Origin: Calothrix sp. CSU_2_0
Lineage (GTDB): Bacteria; Cyanobacteriota; Cyanobacteriia; Cyanobacteriales; Nostocaceae
DNA length: 64,000 nucleotides
Assembly: GCA_012034595.1 (NCBI GenBank)
Contig: JAAUPE010000004.1
Span: 1 to 64,000, forward strand
Direction: 5' to 3'
The translations under genes and the position numbers were made by a program. Positions 22,232 to 26,886 of the stretch are shown one piece after another. The notes under the pieces are model-generated. The model searched no databases and had not been told where the DNA came from. It saw only the letters and a program-made list of their open reading frames with translations. Position 1 is the stretch's first letter. Every line of letters begins with the position of its first letter.

Positions 22232-22564
22232 TTAAGCATTCGCAAAAACATTACTTATAAAAAACCTCGTTTCCCCAATCTGGCAACAGCAACCGCAACA
22301 GGCAACCTTTTGCATTTGACCTATATCAGTAGTTAGAGGATAAACGCGAGTAATAAAGGTATTATCTTGAGGTGGGTGATTCCTTCGGAAAGCTTCGCTA
22401 ACGCGATATTCAACTAACCCAATTTGTAAATCGATACTTCGATCGGCAGATAATAAACTGATGGTGTCGAGAAGTTGACGTTGTGCAGCTTGGATAAAGC
22501 TTCCCATACTACCAGTTGTATCGATAACAAAACATAAATCGACGTGGTTAAGTCCAGTTTTCAT
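22232..22564 (-). pseudogene. Truncated von Willebrand factor A (vWA) domain protein
   Basis: N-terminal half of a vWA-domain protein starting at MKTGLNHVDL (22564). The metal-binding MIDAS motif is present (DTTGSMGS), and the sequence follows the family to ITRVYPLTTDIGQMQK. It then turns into unrelated cysteine-rich sequence and stops, so roughly the second half, with the remaining MIDAS residues, is lost. Between EYR and HPPQ there is an in-frame insertion of about eight residues encoded by a GCTTTCCGAAGG palindromic repeat. It lies downstream of the Ro60 gene on the same strand, but I do not infer a functional link. Non-functional most likely. Confidence 0.7.
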
Positions 22565-22728
22565 TGCTTGGTTTTTATTCTTATTTTCATTTTTATTTGG
22601 GAATTTGCATAAAAAGAAGAGAAAATTAAGCATATTAATTAACTCCTGTATATACACTTAAATATGAAGAGAAAAATCAAGATTATGTATATTAATACCT
22701 AATATTCCTGACAAAAAGTTATTCTCTA

Positions 22729-23029: not shown

Positions 23030-24484
<1,455 letters not shown>

Positions 24485-24544
24485 CTACCTCCAAATAGTG
24501 AAGAGATGGGGAAGTAGTTATCGCACGCTGCGGGTTTTTTTTGA

Positions 24545-24625
24545 ATCACCGCGCAAGTCGAGAAAGCCATTTATTTTACTTTTTGCAGAGTAGTATGTAA
24601 GCTTTTTCAGTTAGGGCGCGGCGAT
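24545..24625 (-). ncRNA. Y RNA-like RNA, short form (yRNA-6), adjacent to Ro60 gene
   Basis: An 81-nt element. The ends pair in a 10-bp stem (RNA 5' AUCGCCGCGC with 3' GCGCGGUGAU, one G-U). An asymmetric internal loop has CCUAACUG on the 5' side and GACUU on the 3' side. A second stem uses GAAAAAGCU with GGCUUUCUC, followed by the conserved UACAUAC and a small UACU/AGUA hairpin in place of a tRNA-like domain. The ACUU before the terminal stem matches the arrangement known at the Ro-binding end of Y RNAs. It is the nearest element to the Ro60 gene. There is no U-run terminator; a competing stem exists with 24515-24524. Confidence 0.75.
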
Positions 24626-24680
24626 AACTACTATTATATCATTTTTAAATCTGGTTGTATCCAATTTATCCGAGCTTTCT

Positions 24681-24712
24681 TTGACACTTCACGCAAGTTA
24701 AAAAAGTTAGTG
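24681..24712 (-). pseudogene. Orphan 3' half of a Y RNA-like element
   Basis: Only the 3' strand is present (RNA AACUUUUUUAACUUGCGUGAAG), which aligns base for base with the 3' ends of the intact elements, including the invariant ACUU. No 5' partner strand or UACAUAC box is found between it and the neighbouring gene at 24732. It is probably a remnant left by rearrangement within the array. Confidence 0.55.
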
Positions 24713-24731
24713 AAATATTGAAAGTTGATTA

Positions 24732-25352
24732 TTATTGATTTAATTTTTGTACAATCAACTTAATTTCTTTTTTATTACACTGACGTTTTTTGATTCCGCC
24801 TTCAGTATCCTCTAAATAAGTTACTAAGTACCAAATATCATTAATTTTGCAATAGCGCTGATTGTCAATAAATACTTCATCATCGCGCTTTTTAGAAGCA
24901 GATTTTGATACTTTTTTCGCTAAACAAAGAAGACCAGTTTCGGGATGAACATATAGTTCTTCTCTCCAGTAACCCAGATGTCTATTTCTTCGAGAACAAG
25001 GAACATTATCAATAATAACAACATCACGCTCTACCATTGCAAATAAATGAAATAGCAAATGTTGTCCTGCTAATGTCTTCGTTTCAATTTTTTGGCAAAG
25101 CTCGCTGTAGACAATATCCCAAGGTTGGTTTAATTGCGATCGCAACCAACGCCGCAATGGTGATAAATTATCTGAAAAGCCTTTAGTTCGCCATCTATTT
25201 TTGATGATATAAGGATTAAGTAACCCATCATCTATTGCATCTTGTGTTAATTTGTAGAGAGTCTTTTTATATCCCGTAACCTTCTTTTGACTAATTCGCC
25301 ATCCCACACGTGGACGTTCGATTACTATCTTGCCTAAACGATGTTCGCTCAT
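24732..25352 (-). CDS. Conserved protein of unknown function inside the Y RNA array
   Basis: A basic protein of 206 residues if started at the ATG at 25352 (MSEHRLGKIVIERPRVGW); a TTG four codons upstream is less likely. No domain that I recognise. Visible features are an arginine/lysine-rich N-terminus, an aromatic-rich middle (WDIVYSELCQKIETKTLAGQHLLFH) and a likely structured segment around HLGYWREELYVHPETGLLCL, where paired basic residues could suit nucleic acid binding. It lies on the same strand as, and between, Y RNA-like elements and the Ro60 gene, so it may act with the Ro60-Y RNA particle. That link is inference from position only. Real gene judged from codon structure and length. 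Confidence 0.7.
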   Translation of the reverse strand: MSEHRLGKIVIERPRVGWRISQKKVTGYKKTLYKLTQDAIDDGLLNPYIIKNRWRTKGFSDNLSPLRRWLRSQLNQPWDIVYSELCQKIETKTLAGQHLLFHLFAMVERDVVIIDNVPCSRRNRHLGYWREELYVHPETGLLCLAKKVSKSASKKRDDEVFIDNQRYCKINDIWYLVTYLEDTEGGIKKRQCNKKEIKLIVQKLNQ

Positions 25353-25542
25353 ATGGAAAAACAATGCCTAAATTTAATCTTACTTGGTGAATATTTAAAT
25401 CAGTTGAATTAGTTAAATTAGTTAAATTAATTGAACTAACTGAAGTTATTTGATGCGATATCGGAATATTCAAGTAAGTATTCGCCTGCATTGTTTTTCC
25501 TCCTTTAAAGTATGATGATATATAATTTTTGGATAATAGGGA

Positions 25543-25667
25543 GTATCGCGCAAGTTAAAAAAGCTGTTTGTTCACACATGGGATTTGAACCCACATATTC
25601 TTGAACCTAAATCAAGTGCCTTTTCCATTTGGCTAGTATGTAAGCTTCTTAGATTAGGGCGCGATAC
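25543..25667 (-). ncRNA. Y RNA-like RNA with Leu(UAG)-type tRNA-like domain (yRNA-4)
   Basis: A 125-nt element. The terminal stem GUAUCGCGC/GCGCGAUAC is a perfect 9 bp. The internal loop is CCUAAUCU on the 5' side and UAACUU on the 3' side, then a second stem AAGAAGCU/AGCUUUUU. The insert at 25571-25642 folds as a tRNA: D-arm GCC/GGC, anticodon arm CUUGA-UUUAGGU-UCAAG (anticodon UAG), five-base variable loop, T-arm GUGGG-UUCAAAU-CCCAU. The acceptor 5' strand is the conserved UACAUAC, pairing with GUGUGAA with one A-A mismatch. The short variable loop is unlike real tRNA-Leu and there is no CCA, so a tRNA mimic rather than a decoding tRNA is likely. tRNA-finding software may report it as a tRNA. 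Confidence 0.8.
25571..25642 (-). tRNA. tRNA-like domain, anticodon UAG (Leu-type mimic)
   Basis: Cloverleaf-competent domain embedded in the Y RNA-like element at 25543-25667. It has a canonical T-loop (TTCAAAT), a D-loop with GG and G37 after the anticodon. It lacks the long variable arm expected of tRNA-Leu and has a mismatch in the acceptor stem. Listed separately because it can be mistaken for an independent tRNA gene. Confidence 0.55.
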
Positions 25668-25697
25668 ACTTTTGGTATTAAGCTTTGCTTATCGCAA
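25661..25697. repeat. Dispersed palindromic repeat GCGATAC...TTATCGC, copy A
   Basis: Copy of a roughly 37-bp element, GCGATAyrCCTTTGG-nn-TTAAGCTytGCTTATCGCaa in general form, whose ends are complementary. Related copies lie at 31799-31836, 33088-33125 and, partially, 35204-35234. This copy abuts the 5' end of the Leu-type Y RNA. Confidence 0.65.
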
Positions 25698-25752
25698 TAT
25701 TTTTAATTTAGCTAAATTCAAAGCTAAATTAATATTTTAAGTTTTTAAAAAC

Positions 25753-26000
25753 CTCGCATAAGTCGAAAAAGTTATTACAATCTACCGCTCTTACTTAGCT
25801 ATATCTTATTATTAGATTAATCTAAGCAGTGGGCACACATTTCTAATCGGAGAACGCAAGACTTGAAATGCAATCGCTAATTCAATTATCAACACTTCGA
25901 GAACAAATATATCCCGTGTTGAGCGTCTCAACTGAATATCGCTACCTTAGGGTCGTTATAGTTACGAAAAGGATGTAAACTTATCCGGTAAGGATGCGAG
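25753..26000 (-). ncRNA. Large Y RNA-like RNA with 23S helix 69-like insert (yRNA-3)
   Basis: A 248-nt element with the same framework: terminal stem CUCGCAU/AUGCGAG, 5' loop CCUUACCG, second stem AAGUU/AACUU and 3' ACUU. The second stem shows a compensatory change against its siblings (GC to GU on one side, GC to AC on the other), and the 5' box reads UUUACAUCC. The insert includes 25934-25966, which matches 30 of 33 bases of the universally conserved 23S rRNA helix 69 region, as recalled (the I-CeuI target region). Further on are GUUGAG/CUCAAC and CAACAC/GUGUUG hairpins and a partial tRNA-like 5' half (AGCUAAGUAAGAGC D-arm). Fold beyond the conserved stems is uncertain. Confidence 0.7.
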
Positions 26001-26012
26001 ATAATTTTATTT

Positions 26013-26180
26013 ATCCCACGTAAGTTAATAAAGCTATTTTTACAAGTCGTCTGCTCTACTATTGAGCTACATCCCCCAGATTAATTATCAATACAATAAA
26101 TAACGGGGATGATGGGATTCGCACCCATAACCGAACGATTAACTATATGTATGTAAGCTTTAAAAGTGAGGACGCAGGAT
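26013..26180 (-). ncRNA. Y RNA-like RNA with circularly permuted Thr(UGU)-type tRNA domain (yRNA-2)
   Basis: A 168-nt element. The terminal stem AUCCUGCGU/ACGUGGGAU is 9 bp with two G-U pairs, then CCUCACUU, AAGCUUACAUAC, and on the 3' side AGCUUUAUUAACUU. Inside, the 3' half of a tRNA (26105-26142: anticodon-stem strand UCGUU, variable loop, T-arm AUGGG-UGCGAAU-CCCAU, acceptor CAUCCCC) comes first. After a 28-nt AU-rich linker comes the 5' half (26040-26076: acceptor GGGGAUG, D-arm GCUC/GAGC, anticodon strand GACGA then CUUGUAA). The acceptor stem is a perfect 7 bp. The Ro-binding stem thus enters through the anticodon loop, the topology described for YrlA RNAs. The D-loop lacks GG. Confidence 0.82.
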
Positions 26181-26191
26181 TGATTATTGGA

Positions 26192-26316
26192 CACTTCGCG
26201 CAAGTTAAGAAAGCTGTTGGTATATACACAGGAATTGAACCTGCACCTTTCGATTAAGAGTCGAACGCTCAACCAATGAGCTAGTATGTAAGCTTTCTAA
26301 ATTGGGGCGCGAAGTG
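26192..26316 (-). ncRNA. Y RNA-like RNA with Lys(CUU)-type tRNA-like domain (yRNA-1)
   Basis: A 125-nt element. The terminal stem CACUUCGCGC/GCGCGAAGUG is a perfect 10 bp, the internal loop is CCCAAUUU against UUAACUU, and the second stem AGAAAGCU/AGCUUUCU is a perfect 8 bp. The enclosed domain (26221-26290) has D-arm GCUC/GAGC, anticodon arm UUCGA-CUCUUAA-UCGAA (anticodon CUU), T-arm GCAGG-UUCAAUU-CCUGU, and an acceptor UACAUAC/GUAUAUA with one C-A mismatch, followed by CCA. It is the first element of the array in transcription order; only 11 bases separate it from the next, suggesting a processed polycistronic precursor. Confidence 0.8.
26221..26290 (-). tRNA. tRNA-like domain, anticodon CUU (Lys-type mimic)
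   Basis: Cloverleaf-competent 70-nt domain within the Y RNA-like element at 26192-26316. It has a complete D-arm and T-arm, a seven-base anticodon loop and an encoded CCA directly after the acceptor stem. The acceptor 5' strand is the UACAUAC box shared with elements that have no linear tRNA, which argues that it is part of the larger RNA rather than an independent tRNA gene. Confidence 0.55.
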
Positions 26317-26398: not shown

Positions 26399-26665
<267 letters not shown>

Positions 26666-26886
26666 TTATACTACAATCGTATTACAAAAGTGTCAAGAGG
26701 ATGGGAATATTTTTTTGGAGACTAGCTAATGCCTTACTCCGTCTCAGTTTCAATAGTGTAGTATGATATATTGCTATGCGATCGCTAATGAATATTCAAA
26801 AATCTTTCTAGTTTCCCCCCTTAACAAGGGGGGATTGAGGGGACTTTATATAAAGTCAATCTTTCAATAATAAGTTGACTTATGAA

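Follow-up and report, generated by a model that had tools for sequence, protein, structure and literature searches.

A Ro60-linked array of Y RNA-like elements with tRNA-like and 23S rRNA-like modules in the cyanobacterium Calothrix sp. CSU_2_0

In Calothrix sp. CSU_2_0, five Y RNA-like elements lie on the minus strand upstream of a gene for a Ro60-like protein, and most of them enclose, in a shared shell, a piece resembling the translation machinery: a whole tRNA, a circularly permuted tRNA or a strand of 23S rRNA. They were analysed in the first 64,000 nucleotides of contig JAAUPE010000004.1 (GCA_012034595.1), the stretch referred to below as the window. Bacterial Y RNAs mimic tRNA, and the reason for this mimicry is an old question. 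Here one shell recurs with varied tRNA faces and with pieces of 23S functional centres, which suggests a shell that serves for display and carries the translation machinery as its cargo. Our preferred reading, held with reasonable though far from full confidence, is that the array provides stress-induced, Ro60-bound mimics of the translation machinery that serve as bait for damaging or repairing factors. The identity of the elements is strong; their mechanism we infer.

Both strands of the window were searched with a descriptor of the shell. Each of the five elements scored at least 19.6, and the other places listed by the descriptor at most 18.2; at a looser threshold it gave 0.55 matches per shuffle of a 16-kb piece. 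A sequence-only reading of this DNA had described five minus-strand elements of one architecture, and all five lie where it placed them, with the top scores in the window. Element 1 (26192..26316; coordinates written with two dots are on the minus strand) holds a whole unpermuted tRNA-like module, read by ARAGORN as Lys(CTT) at 26219-26290. Element 2 (26013..26180) contains a circularly permuted tRNA opened in the anticodon arm, the topology of YrlA; element 3 (25751..26002) a module with a strand resembling helices H69-H71 of 23S rRNA; and element 4 (25543..25667) again a whole tRNA-like module, read as Leu(TAG) at 25570-25642. Element 5 (24545..24625) is a short shell without a module, located between the last open reading frame (ORF) and the Ro60 start codon.

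The shell comprises a terminal stem, a CCYAAC loop, an AAGC/GCUU inner stem and a 3' ACUUG. It is the constant part of the RNA and would dock on Ro60. The terminal stems differ between elements and each pairs with its own partner strand, as the sequence-only reading described, element 2 using G-U pairs. The 5' loop that it gave as CCUAAYYK is present, but its sequence is looser and CCYAAC-like; the shared second-stem sequence is exact as AAGCUUACAUAC in elements 1, 2, 4 and 5, while element 3 has AAGUUUACAUCC instead. The 3' ACUU, thought to be invariant, belongs to AACTT or GACTT in 420 of the 439 unique elements of the wider set described below, and the others deviate. The 3' half of a sixth element, likewise pointed out earlier, is real (about 24683..24710) and looks like the decayed relic of a whole copy; in Calothrix sp. 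NIES-4101, whose Ro60 is 93% identical, the corresponding place between the 210-amino-acid ORF and Ro60 is occupied by a whole element.

Across 144 loci, duplicate genomes included, 572 elements were found, of which 439 were unique. By module they comprise 159 elements with a whole tRNA-like module (class A), 93 with a permuted one (class P), 27 with the H69-H71-like strand (class E), 22 with the sarcin-ricin motif and the GTPase-associated centre (class G) and 63 shells of less than 100 nt without a module (class F). The order in the window is A, P, E, A, F. To examine the terminal stem independently, 265 candidates within 3.2 kb upstream of Ro60 genes were chosen by the inner motifs only and not by the stem. 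A stem of at least 6 bp formed with the element's own partner in 97% of them, compared to a mean of 54% and a maximum of 60% when partners were swapped (200 swaps); for at least 8 bp the values were 84% against a mean of 28% and a maximum of 34%. The changes in the stem are compensatory, as had been claimed; the unique elements have 220 different 5' strands. Such a compensated stem joining the two ends is a general trait of bacterial Y RNAs and is present here, weakly in class G.

Elements 1 and 4 matched the tRNA family RF00005 with 59.1 and 49.2 bits, respectively. In class A the acceptor strand reads TACATAC in 152 of 159 sequences. ARAGORN assigned 36 different 'anticodons' to this class, including A34 other than in ACG (25/159), stop anticodons (6) and anticodons that are not three letters long (13). 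An alignment of 39 sequences has 31 predicted pairs, 18 of them with paired changes, also in the anticodon, D and T stems. An acceptor identity of its own together with a matching usable anticodon, as in a decoding tRNA, was not found across the class. Because the acceptor strand is nearly constant in spite of the varied and odd 'anticodons', the class A modules are, judged by their sequences, mimics and not decoding tRNAs.

When the two ends of the insert were joined, 93 of 156 class P candidates read as a tRNA across the joint, compared to 0 of 156 shuffled inserts. The joint lay at tRNA position 30-46 in 81 cases, at 17-19 in 5, at 27-28 in 3 and at position 57 in one, that of a huge phage. 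For the remaining 3 of the 93, with the joint at position 8-10, the permuted status was rejected, as they are whole modules missed by the linear scan. The end-joined insert of element 2 reads as a tRNA with the joint at position 36 of 81, and its order of T arm, closed acceptor stem and D arm is that of YrlA; elements 1, 3, 4 and 5 do not have this order. Element 2 scored 34.3 bits with the Rfam YrlA model (RF02553) and the best score in the loci of six relatives was 41.7 bits, both below the gathering score of 69, so that filing as Rfam YrlA was rejected. By its sequence the array belongs to the Ro60-Y RNA kind without being a member of Rfam YrlA.

Since no 23S rRNA was matched in the window's own genome by the large-subunit rRNA model or by pattern, both of which are fallible (they missed Synechococcus elongatus and a one-contig genome, G027, respectively), the cyanobacterial 23S rRNA of a relative (L120) was taken as query against the window, which was present twice, and against 61 loci plus three named ones. 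It gave 43 matches at E ≤ 1, all in sense orientation, and 26 at E ≤ 1e-3. The reversed query gave 2 matches, and 30 dinucleotide shuffles a mean of 0.9 and a maximum of 4, none of them at E ≤ 1e-3. Two regions recurred. The first, about Ec 1909-1941, was matched in 19 loci; the second, Ec 1062-1144, is the GTPase-associated centre and was matched in 22 (Ec numbering was set by us from the H69 motif; a 23rd match to this centre, at L118, Ec 1112-1165, E 0.96, was dropped). A 33-nt strand of element 3 is 91% identical to 23S rRNA at about Ec 1909-1941 (H69-H71), and the 5' part of class E matched 23S rRNA in nhmmer at 1.8e-8 with the database size set to 1 Mb. The idea that element 3 is the complete 23S domain IV in circularly permuted form was rejected, because the match is confined to the 5' strand. 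In some class E sequences a possible H69 stem joining both halves can be seen by eye.

The sarcin-ricin motif AGTACGAGAGG was located at most 130 nt upstream of the GTPase-centre match in 22/22 loci and nowhere else in the 751,547 bases. Class G had first been defined by this motif, which made an earlier count of 22/22 circular; the 22/22 given here was derived from the BLAST matches. Inner shell motifs flank these elements on both sides in 22/22. Predicted pairs had changed on both sides in 23/46 cases in the class E alignment and in 22/50 in that of class G, and by our reading the class G alignment would fold as a three-way junction over the GTPase-centre segment. The class G RNA lies in or beside an array of trn tRNA genes at L066, L071, L077, L079, L081, L084, L085, L095, L096, L097, L099, L101, L109 and L111; at other loci it starts about 1.5-5.8 kb past the Ro60 start codon. 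As a source of modules 16S rRNA was rejected, as its matches were spacer tRNAs and a spacer boxA, apart from some weak matches (E 0.35-0.95) to other parts of the fetched rRNA stretch. At L092, L097, L101, L113, L117 and L118, elements at -140 to -810 from Ro60 remained unclassified and share a GGUGC...CGCUG(C/A)AAGCC-like hairpin.

The protein next to the array (482 amino acids, 23030..24478) has N-terminal helical repeats and a VWA-like domain with DKSGS, of the metal ion-dependent adhesion site (MIDAS) type. Neither the Pfam TROVE model PF05731 nor NCBIfam matched it; a profile built from 16 relatives found only two TROVE chains among PDB chains (E 0.0072). An AlphaFold model of modest quality was obtained from 14 sequences (predicted local distance difference test score 68, predicted template modelling score 0.47). 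Foldseek ranked Ro60, Rsr or TROVE structures in all of positions 1-12 against PDB (E 1.3e-9 to 2.7e-6), with template modelling scores of 0.43-0.56 and a root-mean-square deviation of 9-11 Å over the chain. The MIDAS-type DxSxS is D305-K-S307-G-S309, and D305, S307 and S309 are invariant in the 14 sequences. The predicted fold, a HEAT-like ring with a VWA domain, thus identifies the protein as a Ro60, which Pfam does not; its RNA binding is putative. A different TROVE protein, with PF05731 and distinct from the one in the window, was present in 18 of 60 relatives (L001-L018). Near these proteins tRNA-family matches occurred, many spanning 120-140 nt, as well as YrlA matches below the gathering score.

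Homologous elements accompany other cyanobacterial Ro60 genes. Named loci were the best 80 of the 193 stretches of a named genome collection that encode a Ro60-like protein; 77 of them have elements, with a mean of 3.9 and up to 9, and 311 elements were in sense compared to 6 in antisense orientation. For the order as a whole, an RNA model (R1) was built from 39 whole-tRNA elements, two of which, elements 1 and 4, come from the window. R1 matched 91 of 291 genomes at E ≤ 1e-6, and relatives of the Ro60-like protein, some of them partial or broken, were present in 95 of the 291. Both occurred in 86 genomes, Ro60 only in 9, the RNA only in 5 and neither in 191; three of the five RNA-only genomes match R1 at just E 2e-7 to 7e-7. 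Because the genomes are related, the evidence is less strong than the Fisher value of 1.6e-56 suggests. In the window R1 gave 135.6 bits for element 1 and 128.8 for element 4, both rows of its own alignment, 61.8 for element 5, 45.1 for element 2 and no match for element 3. The proposal of an expanded Y RNA family serving one Ro60 is supported by this co-occurrence, by the linkage and by the fold of the protein, but was incomplete: the sequence-only reading caught the common shell and missed the tRNA and rRNA mimics, the TrcR-type promoter and the position of element 5 before the Ro60 start codon.

A Y array with a Ro60 of this type (47.5% identity) occurs in the huge phage LR756511.1, and Ro60-like genes with Y elements were found on plasmids of Kovacikia and Dolichospermum. 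In the phage locus (L125, 276738-296234) tRNA-like modules lie in the Y array, and ordinary tRNA genes follow further on. Viral contigs scanned with a single protein gave 14 pattern stretches and no relative, and a plasmid search using the sarcin-ricin element found only Dolichospermum pAfl69.

A promoter, TTGACA-N17-TAGTAT (26668..26696), is located 69 nt before the first ORF, with the TrcR-type site TGTAGTAT (26668-26675) over its -10. It is the one match to this pattern in the window, where 0.07 were expected; TGTAGTAT alone occurs 4 times against 1.63 expected and is not telling by itself. The pattern TTGACN-N14..18-TGTAGTAT was present in sense orientation upstream in 43 of the 61 loci and in 31 of the 80 named loci, in both sets with 0 antisense, and tandem TrcR-type sites were found in 33/61. 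The case for the promoter is carried by this conservation among loci and not by counts in the window or the genome. In Anabaena the trn promoter has a TrcR site identical to this one, and the TrcR regulon, which takes in rtcB and trn, is relieved by elongation inhibitors, according to the passages of PMC10272220 on this regulon. With its site at the -10 the array promoter has the feature of that regulon, and TrcR would be its putative binding partner. In 30/61 loci (0 antisense) there is a boxA resembling the one in the 16S-23S spacer. At least 10 sense tRNA-like genes per fetched stretch were counted in 16/61 loci, Y modules included, and at least 10 outside Y elements in 10/80 named loci.

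The window's own genome has an rtcB (L213, C279) with the promoter TTGACA-N18-TATAAT. Between -35 and -10 its spacer holds ATACTACA, the reverse of the TrcR-type site; no exact forward TrcR-type site was found at this gene, only TGTAGTAC at -576. The link of rtcB to a TrcR-type site in this genome is suggestive only. The same genome has another TrcR-type promoter, with two sites, at L211 (C122:3956-3984); behind it lie a 64-amino-acid ORF and fragments resembling tRNAs, which may be what is left of a trn array.

Element 5 can pair otherwise. The strand AGTAGTTATCGC (24621..24632), which overlaps the terminal stem of element 5, could form a 12-bp helix with GCGATAACTACT (24513..24524), upstream of the Ro60 ribosome-binding site. 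This was the longest alternative helix near element 5, and 0 of 50 shuffles reached its length. When the last element before Ro60 was examined in 83 loci, 27 had a helix reached by at most 2 of 50 shuffles, with pairing sequences that vary by locus, and 56 failed this test. Judged by the sequence, element 5 with its alternative helix is probably an autoregulatory switch on Ro60 synthesis.

Taken together, these features are in our view best explained as follows. The Y RNA array is the non-coding part of a Ro60 operon. It would most likely be transcribed from the TrcR-type promoter, silent during normal growth and opening when elongation is blocked. Ro60 would then bind the shells, and in the resulting ribonucleoprotein (RNP) the modules would be exposed and serve as bait, attracting factors (for example ribotoxins or modification and repair enzymes) whose targets are tRNA anticodon loops and ribosomal functional centres. 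Among the sites attacked by ribotoxins are anticodon loops, the sarcin-ricin loop and the H69-H71 region. The factors would thereby be diverted, or recruited to the Ro60 particle, with RtcB and spare trn tRNAs restoring translation in the meantime; free Ro60 would probably regulate its own synthesis through the empty last shell before the start codon. A bolder version, which we regard as rather unlikely, holds that filamentous cyanobacteria and one huge phage possess a stress-inducible RNP library in which a single Ro60 displays decoys of the surfaces recognised by ribotoxins, antibiotics or translation factors. These surfaces would be anticodon loops and, through several circular permutations, other tRNA faces; the cyanobacteria would add the H69-H71 bridge of 23S rRNA, together with the sarcin-ricin loop plus GTPase-associated centre. 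If true, it would amount to an RNA-based shield of the translation apparatus, its repertoire widened by new modules on a constant Ro60-binding shell.

Several results weigh against the preferred reading. The spaced promoter pattern has 3 matches in the own genome compared to 2 for a backward control, the strict pattern is missing from 49 of the 80 named loci (74 of the 80 offer 1.5 kb or more of upstream sequence), and the boxA leader is absent from the window. The 3' half of class E had no match to 23S rRNA in nhmmer, so that the H69-H71 strand alone is demonstrated. In the sarcin-ricin class the terminal stem was found at threshold 19 in 4/22, lower in 10 and not at all in 8, and no element of the window's genome has the exact sarcin-ricin pattern. 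Ro60 occurs without an RNA match in 9/95 genomes and the RNA without a Ro60 match in 5/91, and 75 of the 439 unique elements fit no class. YrlA of Salmonella was not cut by a tRNA-cutting nuclease, according to passages of PMC7790460, which also propose YrlA as a possible competitive inhibitor of anticodon nuclease. Remaining uncut fits an inhibitor and not a sacrificial decoy.

The main rival is that the modules are docking handles. They would lead Ro60 to enzymes that process tRNA or rRNA, or to ribosomes and tRNAs that are damaged and due for surveillance and decay. The modules retain tRNA and 23S residues, the T arm and AGTACGAGAGG among them, of the kind that maturation and modification enzymes recognise. 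Docking also has a bacterial precedent in the Deinococcus Rsr-Y RNA-PNPase particle, as presented in parts of PMC8058203 and PMC7790460. One or two modules would suffice for a handle, however, whereas an array can have as many as nine elements and their anticodon loops vary, and we consider docking a real but doubtful contender. The array might otherwise act only in cis, as a structured 5' untranslated region controlling Ro60 expression. Element 5 overlaps a second helix before the ribosome-binding site, and loci that pass the helix test exist; yet the failing loci are in the majority, ORFs are interspersed among the elements, and the sarcin-ricin class is mostly in or beside trn arrays or after Ro60, positions unfit for a leader. 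A leader and nothing else is thus improbable.

Two further explanations were considered. The shell could be trimmed and the module join the trn tRNA set, in keeping with whole modules that score as tRNA and with the loci rich in tRNA-like genes. Such spare-tRNA precursors are very improbable, given the TACATAC strand that stays near constant whatever the 'anticodon', the A34, stop and non-triplet anticodons, and the permuted and rRNA modules, for which decoding is impossible. Least probable of all, at a few chances in a hundred at best, is that the pieces are debris of rRNA and tRNA left by mobile elements or gene conversion. The 33-nt strand is indeed highly identical to 23S rRNA, and the H69 strand includes the I-CeuI homing site; against debris, the pieces sit in the same shell motifs, in the sense strand and in many genera, the paired changes in classes E and G are frequent, and the reversed and shuffled 23S controls were low.

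Among known systems, the Salmonella rsr-yrlBA-rtcBA RNA repair operon likewise combines a protein of Ro60 fold with neighbouring Y RNAs that contain a tRNA-like module, and is linked to an RtcB regulon. The 3' ACUUG of the shell is common to the Rfam YrlA consensus. The Calothrix system differs from the Salmonella operon by its array of up to nine RNAs with whole tRNAs, otherwise-opened tRNAs and 23S pieces, by a TrcR-type promoter in place of RtcR and by scores below the YrlA gathering score. To our knowledge, no rRNA modules have been described for the Rsr-Y RNA-PNPase particle of Deinococcus. This particle likewise combines Ro60 with an accessory Y RNA (passages of PMC8058203 and PMC7790460). 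The trn operon and TrcR regulon of Anabaena sp. PCC 7120 share the promoter motif, as given in sections of PMC10272220, and resemble the loci here with at least 10 tRNA-like genes in the same stretch; the words 'ro60', 'trove' and 'noncoding' do not occur in the main text of that paper. TROVE proteins of jumbo phages are named together with a tRNA-like partner (PMC7824862), and those of Borgs are named as proteins (PMC11208441), with no arrays or rRNA modules in the respective passages. The huge phage LR756511.1, with its Ro60 of the window's type and its Y array, resembles the jumbo-phage case. Among the papers listed in searches of an open-access subset of the literature, none dealt with cyanobacterial Y RNA arrays, with Y RNAs that mimic rRNA or with the sarcin-ricin motif together with Y RNA and Ro60. 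The array joins three threads, namely Ro60 RNPs, the cryptic trn tRNA operon and the cyanobacterial TrcR/RtcB translation-stress regulon, and opens the role of the modules in Y RNAs to direct testing.

The neighbouring genes are less easily placed. A 66-amino-acid ORF (26399..26599) is the first gene past the promoter; its first 65 residues matched no Pfam or NCBIfam family, and homologues lie upstream of Ro60 in 123 of the 144 loci. A 210-amino-acid ORF within the array (24732..25364) matched no known family and has a homologue upstream in 61/144 loci. Downstream of Ro60, at 22232-22657, the window contains a short ORF with a VWA domain that appears to be truncated.

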